This document shows, one piece after another, positions 43,289-56,976 of a stretch of DNA of 64,000 bases. This stretch comes from Propionivibrio limicola (GTDB lineage Bacteria; Pseudomonadota; Gammaproteobacteria; Burkholderiales; Rhodocyclaceae). Each line of letters starts with the position of its first letter. The first letter of the stretch is position 1. The position numbers and the translations under genes were made by a program. The stretch lies in the NCBI RefSeq assembly GCF_009469695.1, contig NZ_SSSR01000002.1:62001-126000 (forward strand). The letters run 5' to 3'. The notes under the pieces are model-generated. The model made no database searches and was not told the origin of the DNA. It saw only the letters and a program-made list of their open reading frames with translations.

Positions 43289-43352
43289 GGCGCGATACTC
43301 CTGTTGGGCTTGATGAACAGCGGTTGTAACAACGGCGAGCGCCGAAGGAACT

Positions 43353-43358
43353 TATAAT
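43353..43358 (+). promoter_or_regulatory. Consensus -10 hexamer of rsmE, positioned for a leaderless transcript
   Basis: A perfect TATAAT ends 6 bp before the rsmE ATG. If it is the -10, transcription would start at or next to the A of the ATG. No good -35 is present at 16-18 bp. The only purine-rich stretch upstream (GAAGGAA, 43343-43350) is too far from the start to be a normal Shine-Dalgarno. Confidence 0.5.
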
Positions 43359-43364
43359 CCTACT

Positions 43365-44144
43365 ATGACTTCTCCACGCTTCTATTGCCCGGTGCCGATG
43401 GCGACCGGCACCCTTGTCGAGCTGCCCGAAAACGCGGCGCGCCATGCCTGTCGCGTGTTGCGCCTGCGCGAAGGCGACGGGCTCGTTCTGTTTGACAGCA
43501 CTGGCGGCGAGTACGTGGCGCGCATAGCGTCCGTGAACCGCGATCGCGTCAGCGCCGACGTGCTCGAATGGCGCGATGCCGAATGCGAATCACCGATCCG
43601 TCTGACGCTGGTGCAGGCGCTGCAGACCGGCGAGAAGATGGACATGACGGTGCAGAAGGCCGTCGAACTCGGCGTGCAGCGCATCGTTCCCGTCGCGTCG
43701 CGGCGCAGCGTGCTCAAGTTGCAGGGCGAACGCGCCGAGCGGCGGGTCGAGCACTGGCAGGGTGTGGCGACCGCCGCGTGCGAGCAATGCGGCCGCAACC
43801 GGCTGCCGGAGGTGACGGCGATCATGCCGCTCGAACGCTGGCTGGAACGCTTGCCGCAGGACGCCGCACCGAACGGCGAGCGCGTCTTGCGCCTGATGCT
43901 GGTGCCCGGAGCCGAGTTGACACTCGATCAATTGCCGCGCCCGCAGCCAGGCAGCGAAGTGGAGCTGTTGATTGGCGCCGAGGGCGGTTTGGCGCCGGAA
44001 GAGGTAGCAAGGGCAAAAGAGGCCGGGTATCTTGGTTTGCGTCTTGGTCCGCGCATCCTGCGCACGGAGACGGCCGGGCTGGCGGCGCTGGCGGCGATCC
44101 AGTGTCTGTGGGGCGACTTTGGAGGCGACTCCGGAAAGGGGTAG
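43365..44144 (+). CDS. rsmE: 16S rRNA (uracil1498-N3)-methyltransferase RsmE
   Basis: RsmE methylates U1498 of 16S rRNA in the assembled 30S subunit. The 259-aa protein has an N-terminal PUA-like domain (about 1-75, RFYCPVPMATGT, ENAARHACRVLRLREGD) and a C-terminal SPOUT domain with a trefoil knot (LLIGAEGGLAPEEV about residues 205-218; LRLGPRILRTETAGLAAL about 226-243). Length is about 15 longer than E. coli RsmE. It is followed 3 bp later by the polyphosphate phosphotransferase gene. Confidence 0.95.
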   Translation: MTSPRFYCPVPMATGTLVELPENAARHACRVLRLREGDGLVLFDSTGGEYVARIASVNRDRVSADVLEWRDAECESPIRLTLVQALQTGEKMDMTVQKAVELGVQRIVPVASRRSVLKLQGERAERRVEHWQGVATAACEQCGRNRLPEVTAIMPLERWLERLPQDAAPNGERVLRLMLVPGAELTLDQLPRPQPGSEVELLIGAEGGLAPEEVARAKEAGYLGLRLGPRILRTETAGLAALAAIQCLWGDFGGDSGKG

Positions 44145-44147
44145 GTC

Positions 44148-45662
44148 ATGTTTGAATCGGCGGAACTCGGTCACAAGATCGACAAGGAGACTTTCCGGGC
44201 AGAAGAGCCCAAGGTGCGGGCGGCGCTGCTCGAAGCCCAGTTCGAGCTGCAGGAAAAGGCGGATTTTCCCGTCGTCCTGCTGATCAGCGGCGTTGACGGC
44301 GGCGGCAAGAGCGAGACGATCAACCTGCTCTACGAGTGGATGGATCCGCGCTATCTGTCGACGCTGGCCTTTTCCGAGCCGACCGACGAAGAGCGCGAGC
44401 GTCCCTACATGTGGCGCTTCTGGCGCGCCCTGCCGCCGAAGGGGCGGATCGGCATTTTTGCCGGCTCGTGGTACTCGCACCCGATCGCCGAGCGCATCCG
44501 AGGCGACCTCTCGAAAAGCAGCCTCGACCAGCGCATGGATCAGATCAATCGCTTCGAGGCGATGCTGGTCAATGAAGGCGCGCTGGTCATCAAGCTTTGG
44601 TTCCATCTCTCGAAGGAGGGCCAGCGCCAGCGTTTGAAAGCGCTGGAGAAAGATCCGCGCACCGCCTGGCGTGTGACGCCGGAGAGCTGGGCGCGGCTGA
44701 AGACCTACGACCGCTTGCAGGAAGTCGCCGGCCACATCCTGCGCACGACGAATTCGCCGTGGGCGCCGTGGGATGTCGTCGAGGGGACCGACGACCGTTA
44801 CCGTGCACTACGCGTCGGCAAGATCCTGCTCAACGCCCTGCAGAATCGGCTGGCCGACACGCGCGACCAGAATTTCCCGGTGGCGCCGCCGATGGCCCCG
44901 CGCATCGATAACCTTAACGTGCTGACGGCGCTCGATCTGACGCAGAAGCTCGACAAGGATGCGTATGAAGCGCAACTGGCCAAGTGGCAGGGCCGGCTTG
45001 CCGAACTGGTGCGCCATCCGGAATTCAAGAAACATTCGCTGATCCTGGCCTTCGAAGGTTCGGACGCCGCCGGCAAGGGCGGCGGCATCCGTCGTGTGAC
45101 CGAGGCGCTCGATGCGCGCCAGTACCAGATCGTGCCGGTTGCGGCGCCGACCGACGAAGAGCGCGCCCAGCCGTATTTGTGGCGCTTCTGGCGGCACATT
45201 CCGCGCTGCGGGCGGGTGACGATCTTCGACCGGACATGGTACGGGCGCGTGCTCGTCGAGCGCGTCGAAGGTTTCTGTGGCGAAGCCGACTGGCTGCGCG
45301 CCTACACCGAGATCAACGACTTCGAGCACGAACTGCATGAGGACGGCGCCATCGTCGTCAAGTTCTGGCTGCAGATCAGCGACAAGGAGCAGTTGCGCCG
45401 CTTCAAGGAGCGCGAGAAGGTCGAATTCAAGCGCTTCAAGATCACCGAGGATGACTGGCGCAATCGCGGCAAAAGCGAGGCCTATCAGGCTGCCGTCTGC
45501 GACATGGTTGACCGCACCAGTACTGGCACCGCGCCGTGGACGCTGGTCGAGGCCGACGACAAGAACTTCGCGCGCGTGAAAATCCTGCGTACCATCTGCG
45601 AGCGGCTCGAAAGCGTGCTGGCGCCGCAAAAGGCCAAGAACAAGAAGGACTCAAAACAATGA
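44148..45662 (+). CDS. pap: Polyphosphate:AMP phosphotransferase (two-domain PPK2, class II)
   Basis: This enzyme uses polyphosphate to convert AMP to ADP. The 504-aa protein contains two tandem PPK2 P-loop domains. The first (about 1-240) has SGVDGGGKSETINLL, a variant Walker A; the second (about 265-490) has EGSDAAGKGGGIRR and IFDRTWYGRVLVERVEGF. Both have a lid-type RPYMWRFWR / QPYLWRFWR segment. Duplicated PPK2 of about 500 aa is the hallmark of the AMP-specific class II enzyme known as PAP. It is tightly packed after rsmE, and its stop overlaps the argA start by 4 bp. Confidence 0.9.
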   Translation: MFESAELGHKIDKETFRAEEPKVRAALLEAQFELQEKADFPVVLLISGVDGGGKSETINLLYEWMDPRYLSTLAFSEPTDEERERPYMWRFWRALPPKGRIGIFAGSWYSHPIAERIRGDLSKSSLDQRMDQINRFEAMLVNEGALVIKLWFHLSKEGQRQRLKALEKDPRTAWRVTPESWARLKTYDRLQEVAGHILRTTNSPWAPWDVVEGTDDRYRALRVGKILLNALQNRLADTRDQNFPVAPPMAPRIDNLNVLTALDLTQKLDKDAYEAQLAKWQGRLAELVRHPEFKKHSLILAFEGSDAAGKGGGIRRVTEALDARQYQIVPVAAPTDEERAQPYLWRFWRHIPRCGRVTIFDRTWYGRVLVERVEGFCGEADWLRAYTEINDFEHELHEDGAIVVKFWLQISDKEQLRRFKEREKVEFKRFKITEDDWRNRGKSEAYQAAVCDMVDRTSTGTAPWTLVEADDKNFARVKILRTICERLESVLAPQKAKNKKDSKQ

Positions 45663-46981
45663 CGACCGAAGAACTCAGCCCCGCGCATTTCGTGACCCTG
45701 TTCCGGTCGGTGGCGCCCTACGTCAATCTGTTCCGCGGCAAGACGTTCGTCATCGCGTTCGGCGGCAAGGCGATTACCGGACCGTTTGCGCGCACGCTGG
45801 CCTATGACGTGAATCTGCTCGCCGCCCTCGGCGTGCGGCTGGTGCTGGTGCATGGCGCGCGGCCGCAGATCGAGGAAGAATTGCGCGAAAAAGGGCTCGA
45901 ATCGATCATTCTCGACGGCTACCGCGTGACCGATGCGGCAACGCTCGATTGCGTGATCGATGCCGTCGGCAGCGTGTATCTCGAACTCGAAGCGCTGCTC
46001 TCGCAGGGCTTGCCCGATACGCCGATGGCCAACAGCACGATCCGCGTCGTCGCCGGCAACTTCATTACCGCCAGGCCGGTTGGCGTCCTCAACGGCGTCG
46101 ACATGCAGTACGCCGGCCACGTGCGCAAGATCGACGTCGAGGGCGTCCGTGCCCAGTTGAGCATCGGCAACATCGTTCTCCTGTCGTGCATTGGCGTCAG
46201 CCCGACCGGCGAGATCTTCAATCTGGCGATGGAGGAGGTGGCCGAGGCGACGGCGACGACGATCAGTGCCGATAAATTGATCTTCCTCTCCGACAGCCAA
46301 GGGGTGACCGACAAGGAAGGTGGTCTGCTCGACGAACTGACGGCGGATTCCGCCGAGCGCCTGCTGGCGACGCAGGACTGGCTGTCGCCCGATCTGCGGC
46401 GCTACTTGCCGCGCGCCATCCGCGCCAGCCGCTCCGGCGTCGGCCGCGTGCACCTGATCGGCTACGATGAGGACGGCACGCTGCTGCGCGAACTATTTTC
46501 CCGCGATGGCGTCGGAACGATCATTACGCGCGAGTCGCTCGAAATCCTGCGCGATGCGCGGCCGGACGACATCGCCGGTCTGGTGGCGCTGATCGAGCCA
46601 TTGGAGGAGGAGGGGACGCTGGTGCGTCGTTCGCGCGAACTGCTCGAACGCGAGATTTCGCACTTCTCGGTGGTCGAGCACGACGGCATGATCGTCGGTT
46701 GCGCGGCGCTCTATCCCTACGGCGAGGATCAGGCCGAGCTGGCTTGCTTGGCGGTGCATCCGCAGTTCCGGCGCTGGGGTTATGGCGAGCAATTGATGAA
46801 GCGCATCGAAACGCGGGCCAGGATGGCCGGGATCAAGCGCCTGTTCGTGCTGACGACGGTGACGTCGCACTGGTTCCGCGAACGCGGATTCGTCGAGCAG
46901 CCGCTGGAAGCGTTGCCGTCCGAGAAGCGGCTCGTCTATAACCTGCAGCGGCGCTCGAAGATTTTTACCAAGATGTTGTAA
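45659..46981 (+). CDS. argA: N-acetylglutamate synthase ArgA
   Basis: ArgA acetylates glutamate with acetyl-CoA, the first step of arginine synthesis. The 440-aa protein has an amino-acid-kinase-like domain (about 20-285; [24 protein letters not shown]) that binds the arginine regulator in the family, and a GNAT acetyltransferase domain (about 295-435; [19 protein letters not shown]). The two-domain structure separates it from ArgB kinase. The start at 45659 overlaps the pap stop (ATGA), implying translational coupling. Confidence 0.94.
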
Positions 46982-47033
46982 TGATTGGTTTTTTCTGCCT
47001 GCCAAGGCGATACTTTTTTACGGAGTCAATTCA

Positions 47034-47306
47034 ATGGCAAGAATGGTCAATTGCGTCAAACTAGGTCGCGAGGCAGAGGGCCTCGACTTTCCCCCTTACC
47101 CCGGTGAACTCGGCAAACGGATTTTCGAGAACGTGTCGAAGGAAGCGTGGCAGCAGTGGATTCGCCTGCAAACGATGATCATCAACGAGAACCGCCTCAA
47201 CCTGGCCGACGCCGGCCATCGCAAGTACCTCGCCGAACAGGTCGAAAAACATTTCTTCGGCGATGGCGCCGATGAAGTGCAAGGCTACGTGCCGCCGCGC
47301 TTCTGA
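47034..47306 (+). CDS. yggX: Fe(2+)-trafficking / oxidative damage protection protein YggX
   Basis: This small 90-aa cytoplasmic protein is of the YggX family, which is implicated in protecting Fe-S clusters from oxidation. It begins [18 protein letters not shown], with the conserved Cys at about residue 7, followed by [20 protein letters not shown] and [12 protein letters not shown], all family signatures. The length is exactly typical. ACGGAGTC precedes the ATG. It stands 52 bp after argA and may be co-transcribed with it. Confidence 0.95.
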
Positions 47307-47311
47307 GGCAG

Positions 47312-47411
47312 GAAAAACTTTCACCACCAAGTCACCAAGATGCACCAAGGAAAACCTCCCGAATTTCTTGGTGTAACTTTGTGCCCTTGGTGACTTGGTG
47401 GTTCGCTTTTT
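47312..47411. repeat. Palindromic ACCACCAAG-type repeat, copy B
   Basis: The left arm (47312-47350) has AAAAACTTTCACCACCAAG followed by TCACCAAG and GCACCAAGG. The right arm (47368-47411) is the inverted counterpart: CTTGGTG, then CCTTGGTGACTTGGTGGTT and a terminal GCTTTTT. The complete ~100-bp palindrome fills the gap between yggX and the OlsB-like gene, which converge on it. It could act as a bidirectional terminator. It is related to the element at 12561-12626. Confidence 0.75.
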
Positions 47412-47419
47412 GTGGTTCT

Positions 47420-48202
47420 TCAGCCAACCGGTTGGCCGATGAAGTGCTTTGAATAGCGGCCGGACAGGTGCGACATCGGCAGCAGGATCGGCAGGTCGGC
47501 GGTGTTGAAGTCGGGGTCCCAGGCCGGTTCGCCGCAGATGTAGGCGCCGGCGCGCAGGTAGCCCTTGATCAGCGGAGGCGTTTCGGCGTCGAGGTCGGAG
47601 CGTAGCGCACCCAGCGGCAGCGGACAGCGCGGGAAAACGCGGTATTCGATCGGACTCAGGTAATCCTGCAGGTTGTTGAACAGGCTGGCGGCGATGTGGC
47701 CGCCGTCGGCCATGCTGATGCTGGCGCAGCCGACGAGGTAGTCATAGCCGTGCTGTGTCATGAATTGCGCCAGCCCGGACCAGAGCAGCGCGATGGTGGC
47801 GCCGGTGCGGAAATCGGGATGCACGCACGAGCGGCCGATTTCAACCATGCGCGGGCGCAGGTGTTGCAGGCGGGTGAGATCGAATTCGCTTTCCGAGTAA
47901 TAGCAGCCGATGGCCTTGGCGTTCTCCGGCGTCAGGATGCGGTAGGTGCCGACGACTTCGCCGGTGTCGTCGCAACGCACGACCAGGTGTTGGCAGAAGG
48001 GGTCGAAAATGTCGGCGTCGATGCCGGGCGTGCGCGTTGTCAGCCGTGCGCCCAGTTCGTCGGCAAAGACCTGATAACGGAGTTTTTGGGCGGCGCGGAT
48101 TTCGTGCTCGTGGCTGGCGATGCCAACCGAGAGGGACGGGCGCGCGGCGCGCCGATGCTGCAAGGTGCCAGCGGTCTGCGGGGTGATCGTCTGCGTGGTC
48201 AT
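47420..48202 (-). CDS. OlsB-like GNAT-fold N-acyltransferase (ornithine lipid type)
   Basis: This 260-aa protein resembles the ornithine N-acyltransferase (OlsB) / autoinducer-synthase-like GNAT family, which moves a 3-hydroxyacyl group from ACP onto an amino acid. Visible features: RAAQKLRYQVFADELGARL (about residues 37-55), VVGTYRILTPENA (about 83-95), EIGRSCVHPDFRTGATIALLW (split: EIGRSCVHPDFR, TGATIALLW) and CASISMADGG. In OlsB organisms the product, lyso-ornithine lipid, becomes a phosphorus-free membrane lipid. AGGAGGACACG precedes the ATG, and an 11-bp-phased repeat lies upstream. No olsA is seen nearby, so an unrelated N-acyl amino acid synthase is the alternative. Confidence 0.7.
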   Translation of the reverse strand: MTTQTITPQTAGTLQHRRAARPSLSVGIASHEHEIRAAQKLRYQVFADELGARLTTRTPGIDADIFDPFCQHLVVRCDDTGEVVGTYRILTPENAKAIGCYYSESEFDLTRLQHLRPRMVEIGRSCVHPDFRTGATIALLWSGLAQFMTQHGYDYLVGCASISMADGGHIAASLFNNLQDYLSPIEYRVFPRCPLPLGALRSDLDAETPPLIKGYLRAGAYICGEPAWDPDFNTADLPILLPMSHLSGRYSKHFIGQPVG

Positions 48203-48233
48203 CGTGTCCTCCTGACAAGTTTTTATGCAGGAG

Positions 48234-48278
48234 ACGATACGCAGCGGGCATTACCGGGGTGTTGCGGCCGGATTACGT
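48234..48278 (-). promoter_or_regulatory. Pho-box-like 11-bp-phased array with -10, upstream of the OlsB-like gene
   Basis: On the minus strand three units, ACGTAATCCGG, CCGCAACACCC and CGGTAATGCCC, follow each other with exact 11-bp spacing of the core GTAAT/GCAAC/GTAAT. The third unit matches 5 of 7 core positions of the E. coli Pho-box half-site CTGTCAT. Six bases after it comes TATCGT (48234-48239, 4 of 6 with a -10). The same 6-bp spacing is used at the E. coli pstS promoter as I recall it. Candidate only. Confidence 0.4.
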
Positions 48279-48306
48279 TTTTGTGTTGTCCGGCGTGGAA
48301 AAAATG

Positions 48307-48340
48307 AAAAAAGGATTCACCCGGAGGCGAATCCTTTTTT
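48307..48340 (-). terminator. Rho-independent terminator of phoU
   Basis: AAAAAAGGATTC pairs with GAATCCTTTTTT over a 10-nt loop. It is bidirectional in form; on the minus strand it lies 24 bp beyond the phoU stop. It separates phoU from the OlsB-like gene, so the two are transcribed separately. Confidence 0.85.
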
Positions 48341-48364
48341 GAAGCGGCAGGGTCTGGCGGGCGT

Positions 48365-49081
48365 TCAGGCGTCCTGGCCGAGCTTGGCGAGAATTTCCTC
48401 GGTCGACTCGTGGCGGACGTTGATACCCTTGACCATGTAGATGACGTAGTCGGCGATGTTGCAGGCGTGGTCGCCGATGCGTTCGACGGCCTTGGCGATC
48501 GAAATGATGTCGAGCGAGCGCGAAATGGTGCGCGGGTCTTCCATCATGTAGGTGATCAGTTGCCGGTTCATCGCCTTGTATTCGGCATTGACCTGATCGT
48601 CGAGGCGCATCGCTTCGGCGGCCTGATTCACGTCGAGGCGGGCAAAACCGTCGAGTGCCAGACGCAGCATGGTCAGGGCTTTTTCGGCCATGCCGCGCAA
48701 ATCGATCTGCGGAATGATCTTCGAGCCGTTTTCCTGGTGCAGGCCGATGGCGAGACGGGCAATCTTCTGCGCCTTGTCGCCGACGCGCTCGACGTCGGAA
48801 ATCGTCTTCAGTACGGAAACGATCATGCGCAGGTCGATGGCGGTTGGCTGGCGCTTGGCGATGATCTGGTTGCACAGGGCGTCGATATCCACTTCGAGCT
48901 CGTTGATGCGCTGATCGTCGCGCACGACGGCCTCCAGTTCGGCGATGTTGCCGCTGTACATGGCGTCGATGGCTTTGCGCACCTGTTGTTCGGCCAGTCC
49001 GCCCATCTGCAGGACGCGCGTGCGCAGGCTTTCCAGTTCGATGTCGAAGTTCTTGGAAGTGTGGTCGGTGGTTCCGCTCAT
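48365..49081 (-). CDS. phoU: Phosphate signalling regulator PhoU
   Basis: PhoU damps PhoR/PhoB signalling and phosphate uptake through the Pst transporter. The 238-aa protein is made of two PhoU three-helix bundles: about 15-110 (SLRTRVLQMGGLAEQQV; the metal-binding ERVGDKAQKIARL near 90-102) and about 120-225 (ERIGDHACNIADYVIYM). The start is the ATG at 49079-49081; a nine-codon upstream extension lacks family residues. Unusually, no pst, phoB or phoR gene is in view. A tandem repeat resembling a Pho box lies 57 bp upstream. Confidence 0.95.
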   Translation of the reverse strand: MSGTTDHTSKNFDIELESLRTRVLQMGGLAEQQVRKAIDAMYSGNIAELEAVVRDDQRINELEVDIDALCNQIIAKRQPTAIDLRMIVSVLKTISDVERVGDKAQKIARLAIGLHQENGSKIIPQIDLRGMAEKALTMLRLALDGFARLDVNQAAEAMRLDDQVNAEYKAMNRQLITYMMEDPRTISRSLDIISIAKAVERIGDHACNIADYVIYMVKGINVRHESTEEILAKLGQDA

Positions 49082-49138
49082 TCGTTTGGCTCCAGTCGGG
49101 CTATGCATGGGAGTTTTAATCCTCCGAGCTTAGGTGAT

Positions 49139-49160
49139 GAATGTTGCAGGAATGTTTCAG
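49139..49160 (-). promoter_or_regulatory. Tandem 11-bp Pho-box-like repeat upstream of phoU
   Basis: Read on the minus strand, CTGAAACATTC and CTGCAACATTC are adjacent direct repeats identical at 10 of 11 positions. The 7+4 layout and CTG start match the PhoB half-site architecture (CTGTCAT plus four A/T-rich bases). Its 5' end overlaps the rpiA stop codon. Six bases further is TAAGCT, a poor -10. Confidence 0.5.
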
Positions 49161-49819
49161 TCGGCGGTAAACGTTTTGACGCCCGACTCCATGCCGAGCA
49201 GGCAGACATCGGCCGGACGGCGGGCGAACAGGCCGTTGGTGACGACGCCGACGATCTGGTTGATGCGGCTTTCGAGATCGACCGGATCGACGATCTGCAG
49301 ACCCTTGACGTCGAGGATGACGTTGCCGTTGTCGGTGACAAAGCCTTCGCGCAGCACCGGCGTGCCGCCGAGTTTGGCCAGTTCGCGGGCAACGTAGGCC
49401 TGTGCCATCGGGATCACTTCGACCGGCAGCGGGAAGCGACCGAGCACGTCGACGAGCTTCGAGCCATCGGCGATGCAGACGAATTTCTGCGCGACGGCAG
49501 CGATGATTTTCTCGCGCGTCAGCGCACCTCCGCCGCCCTTGATCATGTGCATTTCGGCGGTGATTTCGTCGGCGCCGTCGATATACACCGGGATGTCGGA
49601 GACCTCGTTGAGGTCGAAGACCTTGATGCCGTGACCGAGCAGGCGGGTGCGCGTGTCCTCGGAACTGGCGACGGCGCCGGGGATGCGATCCTTGATCTCG
49701 GCCAGCGCGTCGATGAAGAGCCGCGCTGTCGAGCCGGTGCCGACGCCGACGATTTTTCCTTCGACGACGTAGTCGAGCGCGGCGCGCGCCACCAACTGCT
49801 TGAGTTCATCCTGGGTCAT
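49157..49819 (-). CDS. rpiA: Ribose-5-phosphate isomerase A
   Basis: RpiA interconverts ribose-5-P and ribulose-5-P in the pentose phosphate pathway. The 220-aa protein has [16 protein letters not shown] (about residues 23-38), the catalytic DGADEI (about 84-89), [12 protein letters not shown] (about 97-108) and the C-terminal [19 protein letters not shown]. Length matches E. coli RpiA (219). The start is the ATG at 49817-49819. It is divergent from the PlcP-like gene. Confidence 0.96.
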
Positions 49820-49931
49820 GGCTTGGGTTCCTGTTGTGCTGTTGCGGTTTGTGCAGTGTGTTCGGTCGCGCATTTTAACGAATTGGCCGGGTGAGGCGTT
49901 GTTTTCCTCGCTTCCCGAAACTGTCGTCAAA

Positions 49932-49975
49932 TCGAAACCAGCGCGAAATCATCACGAAATCGGCGCGTAACAGTC
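49932..49975 (+). promoter_or_regulatory. Four 11-bp direct repeats upstream of the PlcP-like gene
   Basis: Four consecutive units are TCGAAACCAGC, GCGAAATCATC, ACGAAATCGGC and GCGTAACAGTC. Five positions (C2, G3, A5, A6, C11) are the same in all four. CTGTCGTCAAA (49921-49931) directly precedes them in the same phase and resembles a Pho-box half-site. Winged-helix response regulators of the PhoB/OmpR family bind 11-bp-phased direct repeats. The array ends only 11 nt before the first ATG of the gene, so how it would place RNA polymerase is unclear. Confidence 0.45.
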
Positions 49976-49985
49976 GGCGGACAAG

Positions 49986-50822
49986 ATGGGCGCCATGCCT
50001 ACCGTACGTTCAATCTTTCTTTCCGATATCCACCTGGGTACGCGCGCCTGCCAGGCCGATCGCCTGCTTGAATTCCTGCGCTCCTACTCGGCGGATAACG
50101 TTTTCCTGATCGGCGACATCGTCGATTTCTGGGCGATGCGCCGCAACATCGTGTGGACGCCGGGCCAGAACACCGTCGTGCAGAAGATTCTCCGGCGGGC
50201 GCGGCGTGGCGAGCGCGTCGTGTTCATTCCGGGCAACCACGACGAAGCGCTGCGCGATTATCTCGGCATTACCTTCGGCGACATCGCCGTGATGGGCGAA
50301 CACACGCACACGCTCGCCGACGGCCGCCGCTTCCTGCTCGTGCACGGCGACGAATTCGATCAGGTGACGCGCCACCACAAGTGGATCGCCCTGTTCGGTG
50401 ACGTCATGTACGACGTGCTGGTGCGGCTCAATGCGCTGGTGTCCTTCGTCCGCCGCCGTCTCGGGATGCATTGCTACTGGTCGCTCGCCGGCTACGCCAA
50501 GCGTCGCGTCAAGAAGGCGCTGCAGTTCATTTTCGATTTCGAGAACACCGCCCTGCACGCGGCGCGTCAGCGCGGGCTGGACGGCATCATCTGCGGCCAC
50601 ATCCACAGCGCCGTCATCCGCGAGGCGGACGGCCTGGCCTACGTCAATTGCGGCGACTGGGTCGATAGCTGTACGGCGATCGTCGAACATTGGGATGGGA
50701 CGCTCGAACTGATTACGTGGGGTGGGAATGCCGGGGATAGTGTGCCGGAAGAAATACCTGTGCCGGCGGTCGAGTTTCCGATCGCCACGAATGCGAAAGT
50801 TTCTCAAGAGGAGTTGGTTTGA
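49986..50822 (+). CDS. PlcP/LpxH-type metallophosphoesterase (probable phospholipase C)
   Basis: This 278-aa calcineurin-like phosphoesterase has FLSDIHLGTRACQADRLLEF (about residues 11-30), LIGDIVDFW (about 41-49), IPGNHDEALRDY (about 84-95), VHGDEFD (about 119-125) and ICGHIHSA (about 200-207): a full dinuclear metal site. It is often labelled UDP-2,3-diacylglucosamine diphosphatase. However, the LGTRACQA variant, the length above canonical LpxH (about 240) and the downstream GT4 gene fit PlcP, which in rhizobia and marine bacteria cleaves phospholipids to diacylglycerol under phosphate starvation. ATG at 49995 is an alternative start. Its stop shares one base with the next gene's ATG. Confidence 0.75.
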   Translation: MGAMPTVRSIFLSDIHLGTRACQADRLLEFLRSYSADNVFLIGDIVDFWAMRRNIVWTPGQNTVVQKILRRARRGERVVFIPGNHDEALRDYLGITFGDIAVMGEHTHTLADGRRFLLVHGDEFDQVTRHHKWIALFGDVMYDVLVRLNALVSFVRRRLGMHCYWSLAGYAKRRVKKALQFIFDFENTALHAARQRGLDGIICGHIHSAVIREADGLAYVNCGDWVDSCTAIVEHWDGTLELITWGGNAGDSVPEEIPVPAVEFPIATNAKVSQEELV

Positions 50823-52012
50823 TGCGGGTTGCAATGGTTTCCGATGTTTACTTCCCACGGATCAATGGTGTGTCGACGGCCATCCGGACGTATCGCGAGT
50901 CGCTGCGTGCGCAGGGCGTCGAGGTCCGCCTGATTGCGCCGGATTACGGTACCGAGTGTCACGAGGATTGGATTGCCCGCGTGCCGGGGCGGCGCGTGCC
51001 GTTTGATCCGGAAGACAGGCTGGTTCGTTGGGGGGCGATGCATCGGGCGGTTGAAGAAGTGGTCAAATCCGGCTGCGATCTCATTCACGTGCAAACGCCG
51101 TTCGCCGCCCATTACGCCGGGACTGCTGCTGCCAAACGCTACGATGTGCCGGTGATCGCCACCTACCACACGCTGTTCGAAGAGTATCTGGCCCATTACG
51201 CGAAGTTTGTTCCGGCCTCATGGCTGCGCGGGTTGGCGCGCAATTTTTCCCGCCGCCAGTGTAATGAACTCGACGCGGTGATCGTTCCGTCGAAAGCGAT
51301 CTGGGAACGGCTGGCCGAGTATTACGTGGCGACGCCGATGCACATTCTGCCGACCGGCGTTTCGATCGGCGAGGCGGCTCCGGATGCCCGCGCGTCGTTC
51401 CGCGCCCGTCACCACATCGCGCCTGAGCGGCCGGTGGCGCTTTACGTCGGGCGCGTGGCGCACGAGAAAAACATCGATTTCCTGCTCGACGTTGCCGACC
51501 TGATGCGCGAGTCGGTGCCGGAAATGCTGCTCGTCATCGCCGGCGAAGGACCGGCCTTGCCGCATCTGCAGCGCTCGGTCGTCGAGCGCGGGCTGCAGCA
51601 AAGCGTTTCCTTCATCGGCTATCTCGATCGCCAAACCGAACTGCCGGCGTGCTATGCGGCTGCCGATGCCTTCGTTTTCGCCTCGCGCACGGAGACGCAG
51701 GGGCTGGTGCTGCTCGAAGCGATGGCGTGCGGCCTGCCGGTCGTGGCGCTGGCCGAAATGGGGACGGCCGACATCCTCGGTGCGCAGCGCGGCGCGCTGG
51801 TGCCGGACGACAATCCTTACGCCTTCTCGCTGGCGCTCACCCGCCTCTTGCGCGATTCCGCGTTGCACCAGCGTCTCTCCAGCGAGGCCCGCGACTATGC
51901 GCGCGAGTGGTCGAGCGACGCGCTGGCCGCCCGCATGGCAGGCCTTTATCGCCAGATTCTTTCCGCCCATCTGGATCGGCGCGTGCGCGACTTCAAACTG
52001 TCGCCGTTGTAG
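50822..52012 (+). CDS. GT4-family glycosyltransferase, Agt-like
   Basis: This 396-aa GT-B glycosyltransferase of CAZy family GT4 has an N-terminal acceptor domain opening VAMVSDVYFPRINGVSTAI (about residues 3-21), a C-terminal donor domain opening PVALYVGRVAHEKNIDFLL (about 203-221), and the nucleotide-sugar motif ASRTETQGLVLLEAMACGLP (about 292-311), with the E-x7-E signature. The ATG at 50822 shares a base with the upstream stop; a TTG one codon earlier is unlikely. Relatives include diacylglycerol glucosyl/glucuronosyltransferases (Agt) and mannosyltransferases. The PlcP-like partner suggests a diacylglycerol acceptor and a phosphorus-free glycolipid product. Confidence 0.78.
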   Translation: MRVAMVSDVYFPRINGVSTAIRTYRESLRAQGVEVRLIAPDYGTECHEDWIARVPGRRVPFDPEDRLVRWGAMHRAVEEVVKSGCDLIHVQTPFAAHYAGTAAAKRYDVPVIATYHTLFEEYLAHYAKFVPASWLRGLARNFSRRQCNELDAVIVPSKAIWERLAEYYVATPMHILPTGVSIGEAAPDARASFRARHHIAPERPVALYVGRVAHEKNIDFLLDVADLMRESVPEMLLVIAGEGPALPHLQRSVVERGLQQSVSFIGYLDRQTELPACYAAADAFVFASRTETQGLVLLEAMACGLPVVALAEMGTADILGAQRGALVPDDNPYAFSLALTRLLRDSALHQRLSSEARDYAREWSSDALAARMAGLYRQILSAHLDRRVRDFKLSPL

Positions 52013-52017
52013 GGGAA

Positions 52018-52037
52018 AGCCGGCTTGGTGGCCGGCT
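52018..52037 (+). terminator. Small GC-rich hairpin between the GT4 gene and dgkA
   Basis: AGCCGGC and GCCGGCT pair over a 6-nt loop starting 6 bp after the GT4 stop, with only GTTCC behind it. It is a weak or partial terminator. A TATACT at 52066-52071 could be a separate -10 for dgkA. Confidence 0.45.
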
Positions 52038-52104
52038 GTTCCGCTCCGTTAAATCCGTTCGTCGTTATACTTGCCGGCCTGTCGCGTCTGGCGAGGAGAA
52101 AAGT

Positions 52105-52488
52105 GTGTCCGAGGAAAGTCCCTTCAAAGGCAAGACCGGCTTGCGCCGGGTGTGGAATGCCTTCAATTACTCGCTGGCCGGTTTGCGCGCCGCCTTCACC
52201 TGCGAGGACGCGTTTCGCCAGGAAGTGTGGCTGGCGGTGATTCTGATTCCGGCGGCGTTCTGGCTGCCGGTCAGTTGGGGCGGACGGGCGCTGATGATCG
52301 CCAGCGTGTTGCTCGTGCTGATCGTCGAATTGCTCAATTCCGCCATCGAAGCGGCGGTCGATCGCGTCTCGCTCGACCGGCATCATCTGTCCAAGCGCGC
52401 CAAGGATATCGGTAGTGCTGCGGTGTTGATCGCGCTGGTCAATGTGGCCGCGGTGTGGGCCTGTGTGCTGCTTGAGGGAGTAAGGTAG
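52105..52488 (+). CDS. dgkA: Diacylglycerol kinase DgkA
   Basis: DgkA is a small trimeric inner-membrane kinase turning diacylglycerol into phosphatidic acid. The 127-aa protein has three hydrophobic segments (about 38-53, 57-73, 103-122) and the family signature VELLNSAIEAAVDRVS (about residues 73-88). The start is GTG at 52105, because GAGGAGA lies 6-12 bp upstream and the N-terminus SEESPFKGKTGLRRVWNAF then aligns with family members; no ATG is available. In this locus it would return diacylglycerol to phospholipid synthesis, the reverse branch of the PlcP/GT4 route. Confidence 0.93.
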   Translation: MSEESPFKGKTGLRRVWNAFNYSLAGLRAAFTCEDAFRQEVWLAVILIPAAFWLPVSWGGRALMIASVLLVLIVELLNSAIEAAVDRVSLDRHHLSKRAKDIGSAAVLIALVNVAAVWACVLLEGVR

Positions 52489-52496
52489 CGCGCTCT

Positions 52497-52949
52497 TCAG
52501 TTTTCCGGCCGGGCCGGGCACGGGTTGCTGTGACAAATGCAGGTGCCGCCGTGCGGGGCGTGCTGCAGGTTGCGCAAGATGGCGCAGTCGGCCGTGCTTT
52601 GTTCGGCGCCACTGCAGGTATTGCGCAGCGCGTGCAGTTGTTCCTCCAGTCGGTGCAGCGTTTCGATCTGCTGGTGGATGCGGACGATGTGCTCGTCGAT
52701 CAGGCGGTTGACGCGGTCGCAGCCTTGTTCCGGCGTTTGCTGGTACGCGCACAGCAAACGGATATCCGGCAGCCCCATGCCGAGCGAGCGGCAATGGCGG
52801 ATGAAACTCAGGCGCCGCAAGTGCGCCTCGTCGTACGTCCGGTAGCCGTTCGGCTCGCGTGCCGGTCGGTCGAGCAACGCCTTGCGCTCGTAAAAGCGGA
52901 TGGTTTCGATGTCGCATTCGGTGCGGCGGGCCAATTCGCCAATTCTCAT
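52497..52949 (-). CDS. MerR-family heavy-metal regulator, CadR/PbrR type
   Basis: This 150-aa metal-sensing activator has the N-terminal winged helix-turn-helix MRIGELARRTECDIETIRFYE, a dimerisation helix (about 75-110) and Cys77, Cys112 and Cys122, the three-Cys layout of Cd(II)/Pb(II) sensors. A His/Cys-rich tail (HGGTCICHSNPC) is also seen in that group. Spacing between the last two sensor cysteines is one residue longer than in the CadR/PbrR sequences I remember. The start is the ATG at 52947-52949. It diverges from the metal ATPase and is convergent with dgkA, 8 bp apart. Confidence 0.88.
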   Translation of the reverse strand: MRIGELARRTECDIETIRFYERKALLDRPAREPNGYRTYDEAHLRRLSFIRHCRSLGMGLPDIRLLCAYQQTPEQGCDRVNRLIDEHIVRIHQQIETLHRLEEQLHALRNTCSGAEQSTADCAILRNLQHAPHGGTCICHSNPCPARPEN

Positions 52950-52981
52950 GGTTGATTCCTGAACGGGATGTTTGTCGTCTA

Positions 52982-53012
52982 TTGACTCTGTAGTGGCTAC
53001 AGACTGTCTAAT
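52982..53012 (+). promoter_or_regulatory. MerR-type promoter/operator of the P-type ATPase gene
   Basis: TTGACT (52982-52987) and TCTAAT (53007-53012) are separated by 19 bp, the over-long spacer typical of MerR-controlled promoters. The spacer contains the perfect dyad CTGTAG-tgg-CTACAG (52988-53002). Bound regulator would untwist the spacer when metal is present. A GGAGGAAAG ribosome binding site follows before the ATG at 53040. Confidence 0.85.
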
Positions 53013-53039
53013 GATGGCATCGGTTCCGGAGGAAAGACC

Positions 53040-55319
53040 ATGCGTGCGCACGATACGGATTCATCTAAAGATTCGCCTTCATCCTGCTGTTGTGGCAGCC
53101 GCTGTAGTTCGCAACCGTCGCCCCCCGGCGATTCCGCTGATGGTGGGCCGGATAAGTTGGATAAGCCGCTACCCGCCGACGCGCGGCGTTGGCGCTGCCG
53201 CATCGACAACATGGATTGCCCGACCGAAGAACGGCTGATTCGCGGGCGGCTGGCGTCGATGCCGGGAATCGTTCGTCTCGACTTCAATTTGCTTGACCGG
53301 GAACTGACGGTCTTGCACCGGCTTGACGAGGTGCAGCCGGTTGTCGACGCGCTGCTGTCGATCGGCATGGCACCGCGCGTGCTCGATGGTGTGTCGGCAC
53401 CACCGCCCCTGCCAACGCTTGCCGGGCGGCAAAAGCTGTTGCTGGCTTTGAGCGGGGCGGCGGCTACGGCGGCCGAAGCGTGGGCGTGGGTCTTCGGCGA
53501 GGAAACGGCCTGGCCGGTGATCGCCCTGGCTGCCTTCTCGATTCTCTGCACCGGCCTGCCGACCGTTCGCAAAGGCTGGATCGCCCTGCGTCATTTCACG
53601 TTGAACATTTACTTCCTGATGACGCTGGCTGTGGCCGGGGCGCTGATTATTGGCCGCTGGCCGGAGGCGGCGATGGTCTTGTTCCTCTTCGCCGTGGCCG
53701 AAGCGATCGAAGGACTGGCGCTTGATCGCGCCCGGGCCGCGATCAAGTCGCTGACGGCGATGGCGCCGGAAACGGCGGAGGTGGTCGTCGATGGGAGGTG
53801 GCAGGTGCGTCCGATCTCCGATGTTGCGGTCGGCGCACGCATCCGTCTGCGCGCCGGCGCTCGCGTGCCGCTCGACGCTCGCGTCGACAGCGGCCATGTC
53901 GTGCTCGATCAGTCGCCGGTGACCGGCGAAAGCGTCCCGGTCGAGAAAATCGCCGGCGAAACGGTCTATGCCGGCTGTCTCATTGTCGATGGCAGCGGCG
54001 AGGCGACAGTTCTGGCCGACGTCGGGCACAGCACCCTGGCGCGCATTGCCGCCGCCATTCAGGAGGCGCAGGCGCAGCGGGCGCCGACCCAGCGCTTCGT
54101 CGACCGGTTCGCTCATTTCTATACGCCGGCCGTCGTGTTGCTGGCGATCGCGGTGGCCGTCCTCGGCCCCTGGGTGTCCGGGGGGAGTTGGCGGGAGTGG
54201 TTCTATCAGGCGCTCGTCATGCTGGTCATCGCTTGCCCCTGCGCGCTTGTCGTGTCCACGCCCGTGACGGTGGTGAGCGGACTGGCGGCGGCCGCACGGC
54301 GCGGCATTCTCATCAAGGGCGGCGTTTTCCTTGAAAGCGGGCGGCTGATGAAAGCGGTGGCGTTCGACAAGACCGGCACGCTGACGAAGGGGGCGCCGGT
54401 ACTGGTCGATGTCGTGTTGTCGGGAAACGCCGTCGATTCATTGACCCGTCGTGATGCGCTACGTATCGCCGCGAGTCTGGCCGATCACAGCACGCATCCG
54501 GTGGCGCAGGCCATTCTGGCCGGATGGCGGCTTCAGGCGGGTGGGGATGAACTGCTTCCCGTCGAGCGCTTCGAAGTTGTGCCCGGGCGTGGCGTTGCGG
54601 GGTACATCGACGGCGTGCGTTGGCAGCTTGGCAATCAGGTGGCGGTGTTGTTGTCGGCAGTGGAATCGTTGCAAGCCAGCGGGAATACGGTGGCCGTTCT
54701 TGCTTCTGCTGTCGGGGATGAGGTTCTTTTCGCCGTCGCCGATACGGTACGGGCCGAAAGTGCCGAGGCCGTTGCCGCGCTCAAGGCGCAGGGGGTTCAT
54801 CCGGTGGTATTGACCGGTGACAACGAGGTGGTCGGGAAGTCGATCGCCCGCCCGCTCGGGATCGACGACATCCGGGCCGGGCTATTGCCGGAAGATAAGC
54901 ACGCTGCCGTGGCTGAGCTGCATGCCCGCTACGGTTTTGTCGGCATGGTCGGGGATGGCATCAACGACGCGCCGGCGCTGGCGCGGGCCGATATCGGGAT
55001 TGCCATGGGCGCGGCCGGGACGGCGACCGCCTTGGAAACGGCGGATGTGGCGATCATGGACGATGACTTGCGCAAGGTGGCCGAGTTCATCGGTCTGAGT
55101 CAGCAGACGTGCCGTGTCCTCGCGCAGAACATCGTTCTGGCGCTCGGCATCAAGGCCGTCTTTCTGGCGCTTGCGGCGGGCGGCGTGGCGACCCTGTGGA
55201 TGGCGGTCTTCGCCGACGTCGGGGCGAGTTTGCTGGTCGTCTTCAACGGACTGCGACTGGCGCGTTCTCAGGCCGGGCCTGAACGGACAAAACGCCTCAA
55301 ATCTTCTGCAGCAAGGTGA
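53040..55319 (+). CDS. zntA: Zn/Cd/Pb-exporting P1B-type ATPase (ZntA/CadA type)
   Basis: This 759-aa heavy-metal efflux pump of the inner membrane has an N-terminal Cys-rich stretch (CCCGSRC, about residues 16-22) and a heavy-metal domain with the MDCPTEE metal site (about 59-65), the ZntA-style replacement of GMTCxxC. It also has the membrane CPC motif (ACPCALVV), the phosphorylated Asp in DKTGTLTKG (about 443-451), HP-containing STHPVAQ and MVGDGINDAPALARAD. It is controlled by the divergent MerR gene. The 3' end overlaps the convergent GGDEF gene by 23 bp. Metal choice among Zn, Cd and Pb is not decided by sequence; the regulator points to Cd/Pb. Confidence 0.92.
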   Translation: MRAHDTDSSKDSPSSCCCGSRCSSQPSPPGDSADGGPDKLDKPLPADARRWRCRIDNMDCPTEERLIRGRLASMPGIVRLDFNLLDRELTVLHRLDEVQPVVDALLSIGMAPRVLDGVSAPPPLPTLAGRQKLLLALSGAAATAAEAWAWVFGEETAWPVIALAAFSILCTGLPTVRKGWIALRHFTLNIYFLMTLAVAGALIIGRWPEAAMVLFLFAVAEAIEGLALDRARAAIKSLTAMAPETAEVVVDGRWQVRPISDVAVGARIRLRAGARVPLDARVDSGHVVLDQSPVTGESVPVEKIAGETVYAGCLIVDGSGEATVLADVGHSTLARIAAAIQEAQAQRAPTQRFVDRFAHFYTPAVVLLAIAVAVLGPWVSGGSWREWFYQALVMLVIACPCALVVSTPVTVVSGLAAAARRGILIKGGVFLESGRLMKAVAFDKTGTLTKGAPVLVDVVLSGNAVDSLTRRDALRIAASLADHSTHPVAQAILAGWRLQAGGDELLPVERFEVVPGRGVAGYIDGVRWQLGNQVAVLLSAVESLQASGNTVAVLASAVGDEVLFAVADTVRAESAEAVAALKAQGVHPVVLTGDNEVVGKSIARPLGIDDIRAGLLPEDKHAAVAELHARYGFVGMVGDGINDAPALARADIGIAMGAAGTATALETADVAIMDDDLRKVAEFIGLSQQTCRVLAQNIVLALGIKAVFLALAAGGVATLWMAVFADVGASLLVVFNGLRLARSQAGPERTKRLKSSAAR

Positions 55320-56976
55320 AACAGTTGTCGTTCTTGACGGAACAATCGGCGGCCTCGACGCGGTTGCGGCCGCTCCGTTTGGCGTTCAGCAGCGCAAAGT
55401 CGGCCGCTTCGGTCAGTGCTTGCGCCGTGTCGAACATCGGGAAGGAGGCGATGCCGGCGCTGAATGTTGCGTTGAGCGCACCGCTTGCGTGGGCGTGCGG
55501 CAGCGAGGCGAAATCGGCGCGGATGCGGTCGATGACGTTCAGCGCCTGATCGGGGGAAATGTCCGGCAAGGCGAGGATGAATTCCTCACCGCCGTAACGA
55601 CCGATCAGGTCGGTAGCCCGCAGTCGTCCCTTCAGCAACCAGGCCAGTCCGCGAATGACCTGATCGCCGACCGGGTGGCCGTAGGTGTCGTTGATCGACT
55701 TGAAGTGGTCGATGTCGATCATCGCAACCGTCAGCGAATGCGCCGGTGTCAGGGCGGCCAGCATCGTCTTGAGCCGGGATTTGGCCGCTGTGTGGTTGAG
55801 CAGGCCGGTCAGCCCGTCGAGGCGGGAGGAGCGTTGCGTTTCGCGGAAGCGCTCGATCTTGGTCTTGACGACGGCGGCCAGCAGCACCGGGTTGAAAGGC
55901 TTGCTCAGGAACTGGTCGCCGCCCAGACGCAGTGCTTCGACCTGTCGCCCAATGTCCGATTCGCCGGAGAGATAAACGATCGGTAGCGCTGTGTAGGCCG
56001 CCATCTGGCGCAGCACGCGAGTTGCCTCGACGCCGTTGAAACGCGGCATGTGCATGTCCATCAGGATCAGGTCGGGGCGATAGGATTGCAACTCTTCGAG
56101 CAGCGTGCCCGGATTGCGGATGGCATGGCTGTCGATGCCGTGTTCGGACAACGTGCGCTGGATCAGGGCGACGGCAACGCGGGAGTCCTCGACAAGAAGA
56201 ACGCGGTATTTTTCCTGCTCATGGCTTTGCACGAGGTCGAGCACGCAGTTGAGCACGCGCGAACAACCGTCCTCCATCGGTACCGTCAGATCGATGCCGG
56301 AACGCATCAGGGTGACGATGGTTTCGATATCCTGTGGTGCGTCGAGGTAGATCAACTGGCTTGCCGGATGGTGCGACCGCATGGCGGCGATGCAGGCATG
56401 CTGCGTCTTCAGGTCCGGGGCGGTGGTGGACGGAATGAAGAGGACGGCCAAGGGATGCGTGTCGCCGGTCGGATTTTCATCCCAGGCGTGTTTTTGTGTC
56501 TGGAATCCGAAGAAATCAATTTGCCGGCAAAGCGCGCTGGCCATTTTCCCCTTTTCCGGGGTGACAACGATTTTGATGTGGCGTGGCCGGATCCAGTCGA
56601 TCTCTCGCTTTTCTGTCGTTTGCTCTTCGGTACGGCGTTCGTGGGTCGTCAGCCGTGAGGTGGCGACAGCACCAAGCAGCGTGTCGACCTGACGTTGTAA
56701 AGCGACGATGTCCTGCGCGTCGATGGGATGGGTTTCCGCGCAGCCAAGATGGGTCAGCGCTGCGTTTTCCAATCCCTCGCAGAGGCGGACCAGTCCGGGG
56801 AGCCGCATGCGGCTGAAGTGCTCGGCCAGGCTATTGACGGCGACCGTGAATTCGATGAAATGCTCGAACGATCCGTGTGAAACGTAGTTGCCCCAGCGCG
56901 TTTGCAATACGTAAACGCGGTCGTTGATGACATTCGGAGGAAGCATCGCCATATCCCGGTCGTCGATGATAGCCAA
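55297..56976 (-). CDS. Response regulator with GGDEF (diguanylate cyclase) output
   Basis: This 559-aa soluble signalling protein likely makes cyclic di-GMP. The N-terminal ~115 residues are helical and Hpt-like but lack an obvious phospho-His motif. Residues about 130-250 look like a degenerate receiver, opening HIKIVVTPEKGKMASAL, without a clear phospho-Asp. Residues about 258-375 form a full receiver (VLLVEDSRVAV; phospho-Asp in LILMDMHMP; KPFNP). Residues about 390-550 are the GGDEF domain (DGLTGLLNHTAAKSRL, MIDIDHFKSIND, active site RYGGEEF). No RxxD inhibitory site is evident just before GGEEF. Its 3' end overlaps the metal ATPase gene on the other strand. Confidence 0.88.
   Translation of the reverse strand: MAIIDDRDMAMLPPNVINDRVYVLQTRWGNYVSHGSFEHFIEFTVAVNSLAEHFSRMRLPGLVRLCEGLENAALTHLGCAETHPIDAQDIVALQRQVDTLLGAVATSRLTTHERRTEEQTTEKREIDWIRPRHIKIVVTPEKGKMASALCRQIDFFGFQTQKHAWDENPTGDTHPLAVLFIPSTTAPDLKTQHACIAAMRSHHPASQLIYLDAPQDIETIVTLMRSGIDLTVPMEDGCSRVLNCVLDLVQSHEQEKYRVLLVEDSRVAVALIQRTLSEHGIDSHAIRNPGTLLEELQSYRPDLILMDMHMPRFNGVEATRVLRQMAAYTALPIVYLSGESDIGRQVEALRLGGDQFLSKPFNPVLLAAVVKTKIERFRETQRSSRLDGLTGLLNHTAAKSRLKTMLAALTPAHSLTVAMIDIDHFKSINDTYGHPVGDQVIRGLAWLLKGRLRATDLIGRYGGEEFILALPDISPDQALNVIDRIRADFASLPHAHASGALNATFSAGIASFPMFDTAQALTEAADFALLNAKRSGRNRVEAADCSVKNDNCFTLLQKI

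Follow-up and report, generated by a model that had tools for sequence, protein, structure and literature searches.

A candidate phospholipid-remodelling locus in Propionivibrio limicola that brings together plcP, a GT4 glycosyltransferase gene, dgkA and an olsB-like gene

A 64-kb stretch of the Propionivibrio limicola genome (the window; positions 62001-126000 of contig C22) carries a group of genes with predicted functions in the replacement of phospholipids by phosphorus-free lipids. The genome is 3.1 Mb in 56 contigs and the assembly is 98% complete; all coordinates are those of the window. A sequence-only reading had named five genes here: an OlsB-type N-acyltransferase gene, phoU, a PlcP-like metallophosphoesterase gene, an Agt-like GT4 glycosyltransferase gene and dgkA. 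All five are present and open. The locus has the following genes and features:

47420-48202, minus strand: olsB-like gene, predicted ornithine N-alpha-acyltransferase (GNAT, PF13444)
48307-48340, minus strand: terminator-like hairpin in the gap between phoU and olsB (15 pairs and a T-run)
48365-49108, minus strand: phoU, phosphate signalling protein (TIGR02135)
49143-49160, minus strand: weak Pho-box-like site 5' of phoU (9 of 14 consensus positions; matrix p = 0.052, not significant)
49157-49816, minus strand: rpiA, ribose-5-phosphate isomerase A, 5' of phoU (TIGR00021, above cut-off)
49986-50822, plus strand: plcP, metallophosphoesterase, predicted intracellular phospholipase C releasing diacylglycerol (from identity to reference PlcPs)
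50822-52012, plus strand: GTa, GT4 glycosyltransferase, predicted to glycosylate diacylglycerol (from tree, motif and NCBIfam models)
52105-52488, plus strand: dgkA, diacylglycerol kinase (PF01219; GTG start; 92 bp after GTa)

These genes do not form the single compact array first described. They lie in two divergent units, olsB and phoU-rpiA on the minus strand and plcP-GTa-dgkA on the plus strand, and rpiA, which the sequence-only reading overlooked, separates phoU from plcP. The junction of the phosphoesterase and glycosyltransferase genes is as had been noticed: the GT4 start codon shares one base (the A of TGATG) with the plcP stop codon. Because a 15-pair hairpin with a T-run lies between phoU and olsB, co-transcription of these two genes is unlikely; olsB is probably transcribed alone, and a phoU-olsB unit was set aside. 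A terminator scan of the window gives 7 terminator-like sites (6.2 in shuffled sequence), of which the other six have 5-8 pairs.

By orthology, the phosphoesterase is a predicted PlcP and not an LpxH. It is 48% identical over 236-260 aa to both the S. meliloti and the P. aeruginosa PlcP (the two references share 47% identity) and 25% identical to the LpxH encoded elsewhere in its own genome (L221). It scores 45.6 and 41.6 bits on the two LpxH models (cut-offs: 134 and 190.35), failing the NCBIfam equivalog level for LpxH, and the reference PlcPs are likewise weak on these models (38-55 bits). The LpxH of the same genome scores 252 and 230 bits, over both cut-offs. The window protein is therefore nearer to characterised PlcP than to LpxH and falls below the LpxH cut-offs just as the reference PlcPs do. 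At least 97% of PlcP rows have the motif GNHD where LpxH of this genome has GNRD. In a PlcP tree of 64 rows (a quick tree with SH-aLRT support only, as are all trees here), the one LpxH included, which is the only outgroup, lies on a very long separate branch. The sequence-only reading of a PlcP-like phosphoesterase is thus borne out, and a phospholipase C activity induced at low phosphate is predicted for this protein.

The S. meliloti reference PlcP (L011) is encoded near quorum-sensing genes, and from its gene order we take it to be the characterised SMc00171. The P. aeruginosa reference (L045) is encoded directly upstream of GT4 and cyclase genes and is taken as plcP-agt1, since the published gene order is PA3219 followed by PA3218 (PMC8528852; this and the other papers cited below are drawn on in excerpt). 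L045, and the locus of the plcR-adjacent P. aeruginosa glycosyltransferase (L313), are on records labelled as plasmids (96 kb and 847 kb, respectively), and both segments look chromosomal in origin. A scan of named genomes with the P. aeruginosa PlcP gave 80 loci, 78 of them titled Pseudomonas and none P. aeruginosa, and these were used as reference sequences only. In a search of solved structures with the window PlcP, the only match with an E-value below 0.001 is LpxH (5k8k; E-value: 4e-5). Annotated PlcP homologues among the plasmid-collection matches are mostly labelled "UDP-2,3-diacylglucosamine diphosphatase", a name that probably hides the pathway in annotated genomes.

The glycosyltransferase was described earlier as Agt-like; it is not an Agt orthologue. 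In a tree of 88 GT4 proteins there are three starred groups: GTa, which includes the window protein, Agt1 and an Agt2-like group. The Agt1 group contains P. aeruginosa Agt1 and other proteins, including the products of genes directly 3' of plcP in several genomes of the order (Burkholderiales). The Agt2-like group includes six Pseudomonas genes and is named via one of these (L159), the P. aeruginosa protein itself having no row in the tree. L159 is 79% identical to the product of a P. aeruginosa gene flanked by plcR and a DegV gene, which we take to be PA0842 from its position beside plcR. The window protein is only 32% identical to Agt1. The catalytic motif is E-x7-E in 33 of 33 GTa proteins, D-x7-E in 16 of 16 Agt1 proteins and, among 38 Agt2-like proteins, E-x7-E in 36 and D-x7-E in 2 (these counts omit the long-branch row L187_6730 and two duplicate Pseudomonas rows). 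GTa has neither the clade position and D-x7-E motif of Agt1 nor a place in the Agt2-like clade, and orthology to either Agt was ruled out by tree and motif.

The best full-length NCBIfam matches of GTa are alpha-monoglucosyl-diacylglycerol synthase (Mgs; 151 bits) and GlcNAc-phosphatidylglycerol synthase (145 bits), followed by a model at 102 bits, all of them below their equivalog cut-offs. The same two models lead narrowly for the reference Agt1 (60 and 51 bits; next, 48 bits). With lipid-glycosyltransferase models as its best matches, GTa can be placed among diacylglycerol glycosyltransferases in the broad sense, and these models and the neighbouring genes suggest that diacylglycerol is its acceptor. 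A separate Agt1 orthologue is encoded on contig C4 of the same genome and is 77% identical to that of the congener G257; a search of this 98% complete assembly for an Agt2 orthologue found none.

The N-acyltransferase has the conserved domain PF13444, and its two best NCBIfam models are both OlsB (173.8 and 171.4 bits, below equivalog level). These models are tagged BRUA and RHOCB, probably for Brucella and Rhodobacter, and hence the protein is called OlsB-like here. It is 72% identical over 254 columns to the OlsB of G158 (L219), a genome of the same family (Rhodocyclaceae) in which olsA is the next gene, and olsA is the usual neighbour of its orthologues. The OlsB-type assignment made earlier is plausible on these grounds; a search of solved structures with this protein found no useful relative. 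An olsA gene had been expected elsewhere in the genome, and an OlsA-like acyltransferase, although below the family cut-offs, is encoded on contig C56. PhoU scores 214.6 bits on TIGR02135 (cut-off: 130) and 250.6 bits on another PhoU model, under its cut-off of 342. No other two-domain PhoU was found in the genome, which has one further match, to a single PhoU domain (contig C11; 24.8 bits). DgkA matches PF01219 with 119.7 bits (cut-off: 22.3), placing it among prokaryotic diacylglycerol kinases, and has no NCBIfam match.

The association of plcP with olsB recurs among relatives. Positions of the two genes were transcribed by hand from search listings, with 9 of the 156 OlsB-positive genomes of the family omitted. 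In the family sample (199 genomes), plcP was matched in 135 genomes and olsB in 156, and in 35 of the 125 genomes with listed rows for both, the two genes are at most 10 kb apart. These 35 near pairs span all four relative orientations (14, 9, 9 and 3). In the order sample (150 genomes), plcP was matched in 70 genomes, olsB in 100 and both in 57; among the 57, the genes are near in 13, far apart on one contig in 12 and on different contigs in 32. When only single-contig genomes are considered, the genes are near in 5 of 24 in the family (0.13 expected) and in 4 of 9 in the order (0.06 expected), with the reservation that the two samples overlap (two of the 13 near genomes of the order are also in the family sample) and that related genomes are not independent trials. 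The search for conserved synteny that the sequence-only reading had proposed thus yields a proximity of plcP and olsB far above chance expectation.

The stretches mapped around these genes were chosen, not random: they came from genomes with the best PlcP matches, from two sets that were mostly and partly olsB-near, respectively, and from sets that were mostly olsB-far. Among 61 PlcP stretches (the window and a broken copy, L180, included), the neighbours are GTa (36), Agt2-like (36), DgkA (27), PstS (17), PstB (15), OlsA-like (13), Agt1 (10), PhoU (8), Ppx (6), PhoB (5) and Ppk (5). OlsB is in 34 of the 61, a fraction inflated by the choice of sample. Gene-family names were assigned by eye; the representatives checked for PstB, PstC, PstS (two kinds), PhoB, PhoR, Ppk, PhoU and DgkA passed the family cut-off, and those for Ppx and OlsA-like fell below it. 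In L185 (family genome G288), olsB-olsA-plcP-GTa-dgkA lie on one strand beside pstSCAB-phoU. In L195 and L300, pst, olsB, GTa, dgkA, an Agt2-like gene and plcP occur together, and in L183 olsB is divergent from plcP-GTa-dgkA-Agt2. Hence plcP, GT4, dgkA and olsB form a recurrent gene set, found in some genomes with pst, phoU or phoB. The earlier proposal that both phosphorus-free lipid routes and DgkA sit by the phosphate regulator stands in so far as the gene set recurs among relatives; the exact arrangement of the window is not conserved.

Sixty olsB stretches without plcP were also mapped, and these contain an olsA-like gene (59), dgkA (18) and an Agt2-like gene (16). At most 500 bp separate an olsA-like gene from olsB in 59 of the 60 stretches in which olsB is far from plcP, versus 7 of the 34 in which it is near; therefore, joining plcP often accompanied leaving olsA. 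In a tree of 94 chosen OlsB rows (34 near, 60 far) the switch between near and far has to occur at least 11 times, as a gain or a loss, and at least 6 of these switches are forced by starred branches.

The window appears to be one such case. In L214-L216 and L219, olsB is part of a conserved block, just 5' of olsA and a phosphoesterase gene read as apaH (PF00149). The source genome keeps the olsA-like block (L222) without olsB, and olsB is likewise missing there in its congeners G257, G293 and G323; G205 and G347 have no match to the OlsA-like protein. In G257, olsB lies between yggX (with a cytochrome b561 gene intervening) and rpiA, near dgkA and a broken plcP remnant that is at the syntenic place beside dgkA (L180; contig C2, about 8017-8334). 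Neither phoU nor GTa was seen at this G257 site, and an intact plcP-GTa-Agt1 set is on another contig of that genome. The other four congeners sampled have no matches to plcP or olsB. In the OlsB tree the proteins of the window and G257 are joined by a starred branch as a "near" pair, and of the 24 rows in the clade that contains them 20 are far. Because the old site is empty and this near pair lies inside a mostly far clade, the most likely history is that olsB left its place beside olsA for the phoU-rpiA-plcP region within this genus. A simple version of this history is at odds with G293 and G323, which keep the OlsA-like gene without olsB.

Other features flank the locus:

44148-45662, plus strand: PAP, polyphosphate:AMP phosphotransferase (TIGR03708, above cut-off)
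47316-47411, no strand assigned: long hairpin or inverted repeat in the yggX-olsB gap, bordering the relocated olsB on one side
52497-52949, minus strand: CadR-like regulator, downstream of dgkA
53040-55319, plus strand: P-type ATPase, after the CadR-like regulator

The nearby polyphosphate enzyme had been considered meaningful. Because the same order, PAP-NAGS-yggX beside phoU-rpiA-plcP, is kept in relatives without olsB at this site (L210, L213 and L218), PAP is probably background synteny and not part of the module. The palindrome at 47316-47411 is imperfect, with fully complementary 17-nt arms (fold: -50.1 kcal/mol; z: -6.0). Its 15-base core occurs in 3 of 313 loci, all covering the same place between yggX and olsB, and it might be a small repeat element. 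An Rfam search of positions 43000-56000 gave no match at gathering scores. The CadR/PbrR-like regulator and P-type ATPase genes (52497-55319) occupy the slot of an Agt2-like gene in the close relatives L210, L212 and L213.

Taken together, the locus is probably a module for remodelling phospholipid to glycolipid and ornithine lipid, a version of the known plcP-agt locus with added genes. Relatives repeatedly united the same genes, some of them beside phosphate-uptake genes, which suggests that the genes work together. A model with predicted activities and lipids can be drawn from the genes present, their orthology, the clades into which they fall, their repeated clustering and the lack of olsB at the old olsA site. 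PlcP would cleave phospholipid to diacylglycerol and a phosphate ester. GTa would add a sugar to diacylglycerol, and the Agt1 orthologue on C4 may do likewise. DgkA would phosphorylate surplus diacylglycerol to phosphatidate for normal phospholipid synthesis. OlsB and the OlsA-like acyltransferase encoded on C56 would start the synthesis of ornithine lipid, a second phosphorus-free lipid. PhoU presumably belongs to the Pst/PhoBR sensing system, with pst on C11 and phoB on C12.

Several observations weigh against this reading. Clustering of plcP and olsB is frequent and not universal: in 30 of the 125 family genomes the genes are more than 10 kb apart on one contig, and in 60 they are on different contigs. 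GTa is without a characterised member among the sequences compared. The OlsB-like protein is below the NCBIfam equivalog cut-offs of 320 and 350, and the OlsA-like protein scores 124 and 118 bits against a cut-off of 300. G293 and G323 (L305 and L306) retain the OlsA-like gene although they have no olsB or plcP matches, so it may have another use. Finally, nothing upstream of plcP, olsB, dgkA or phoU of the window stands out as a Pho box (best 8-9 of 14 positions; p 0.05-0.23, at background level).

This last point bears on whether the lipid genes respond to phosphate at all. They could instead be expressed constitutively, for stress resistance or normal membrane make-up; this alternative is unlikely, although it carries appreciable weight. 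The search for Pho boxes used a published 14-position consensus and a matrix built from 12 sites upstream of pstS in relatives. This matrix is weak, since of its own 15 pstS-type regions no more than 5 exceed the 99th percentile of background. Neither approach brought out a Pho box that would place the window genes in the Pho regulon, and the direct control by PhoB assumed in the sequence-only reading is unsupported, 8-9 of 14 being ordinary for background. In the same genome phoB has a clear Pho box (12 of 14) and pstS a weaker one (10 of 14; p = 0.016), and the matrix finds none before the genes for Agt1 and the OlsA-like protein on other contigs. Constitutive formation of ornithine lipids also has a precedent in Burkholderia sensu stricto, and in Burkholderia sensu lato their formation is constitutive or probably phosphate-induced depending on the group (PMC7814305).

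Constitutive expression fits less well with the adjacency of phoU, with the gene set lying beside pst-phoU-phoBR in some relatives, and with Pho-box-like sites in the divergent olsB/plcP gap of relatives (13 of 14 in L184 and 12 of 14 in L183, neither passing the stricter matrix). Similar sites occur 5' of phoU in relatives (12 of 14 in L210 and 11 of 14 in L213, versus 9 of 14 in the window). At least 12 of 14 positions agree with the consensus in 6 of 51 plcP upstream regions versus 26 of 2440 random stretches; the stricter matrix puts only 2 of 51 plcP and 1 of 35 olsB upstream regions at or above the 99th percentile of background. Induction of the window genes at low phosphate is accordingly a prediction.

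It is distinctly unlikely that only plcP-GTa-dgkA is a lipid-remodelling locus and that olsB and phoU are chance neighbours in the source genome. Such a coincidence would agree with the absence of olsB from beside phoU-rpiA in L210, L213 and L218 and with the layout of the window, in which olsB is divergent from plcP and set apart from phoU by a hairpin; moreover, any relocated gene has to land somewhere. The proximity of plcP and olsB, however, is repeated far above chance across family and order, and olsB stretches without plcP still hold dgkA (18 of 60), Agt2-like genes (16 of 60) and olsA (59 of 60). A second UDP-2,3-diacylglucosamine hydrolase, with a GT4 enzyme acting on lipopolysaccharide or exopolysaccharide, is very improbable: the names of most annotated homologues, the weak LpxH-model matches (42-46 bits) and the single structural match point that way, but the scores are about a third of the cut-offs or less where LpxH of this genome exceeds both, the reference PlcPs are equally weak, plcP recurs with dgkA, olsB and in some stretches pst, and no lipopolysaccharide family was recognised among the most recurrent neighbours, many families there being without identification. 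An LpxH role, which the sequence-only reading had named as the case that would overturn it, was dropped on these scores and on the separate genuine LpxH in the genome.

Beyond the lipid-remodelling module itself, a broader account is proposed in which confidence and doubt are about equal. A gene set for a phosphorus-free membrane (plcP, GTa, dgkA, agt1 or agt2, and olsB with or without olsA) would have been assembled repeatedly by rearrangement in the family and order, sometimes beside pst-phoU-phoBR. In this set dgkA would be a return valve for diacylglycerol, the glycolipid made by GTa would differ from the products of Agt1 and Agt2, and the window would be an assembly that arose within the genus when olsB left olsA. 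The excerpted literature covers the remodelling of lipids when phosphate is scarce in marine Alphaproteobacteria, rhizobia, Pseudomonas and methanotrophs. If the present reading is true, a cluster of both phosphorus-free lipid routes with diacylglycerol kinase would be a simple genomic marker of the process in another large bacterial group. The locus also points to a glycosyltransferase clade without a characterised member and to a possible role of DgkA in controlling diacylglycerol flux.

No description of a plcP-GT4-dgkA-olsB cluster was found among the open-licence papers listed in searches for one, as judged on titles and the starts of abstracts. Parts of it resemble several known systems. 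S. meliloti has a phosphoesterase 48% identical to that of the window, and its plcP has an acyl-homoserine-lactone synthase gene and a gene for a LuxR-type regulator nearby in the record used; the gene table of that record, which is incomplete, lists no glycosyltransferase gene, dgkA or olsB. Six types of plcP context are reported in marine bacteria (PMC4796936); as in the window, plcP can be beside glycosyltransferase genes, sometimes with Pho boxes, and the partners named in the excerpt are btaAB, agt and other glycosyltransferase genes, not olsB or dgkA. In type Ia methanotrophs, "another putative DAG glycosyltransferase" is encoded beside plcP instead of agt (PMC9239053), so that a non-Agt glycosyltransferase partner of plcP is already known and is not new as such. 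That enzyme is likened to one of Bacillus subtilis and can be related to GTa by description only; the excerpt mentions neither olsB nor dgkA.

A further resemblance is to P. aeruginosa, in which low-phosphate lipid renovation by plcP-agt1 is known (PMC8528852). As in the window, plcP (PA3219) is directly 5' of a GT4 gene (agt1, PA3218), with which it appears to form one operon, and agt2 (PA0842) is separate. Loss of plcP or agt1 abolishes the glycolipid MGDG and loss of agt2 abolishes GADG, whereas GADG is reduced yet persists without plcP (PMC8528852). In this species olsBA, too, is raised when phosphate is low (PMC9804370). The window differs in that its GT4 belongs to a third clade, with E-x7-E, and in the addition of dgkA and olsB. 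It differs likewise from the olsBA pair of relatives and other Proteobacteria, to which its OlsB is related (72% identity to that of G158), in that olsB is apart from the olsA-like gene and at the plcP/phoU locus. The same functions are combined in P. putida BIRD-1, in which PlcP, DagK (of a kind not stated in the excerpt), OlsA and OlsB are up at low phosphate and are called PHO-dependent; the proteins absent from a phoBR mutant include PlcP and OlsAB, with DagK not named there (PMC5082522). In that strain olsAB (0974-0975) are far from plcP (1390), whereas in the window the corresponding genes are neighbours and are joined by a GT4 gene.

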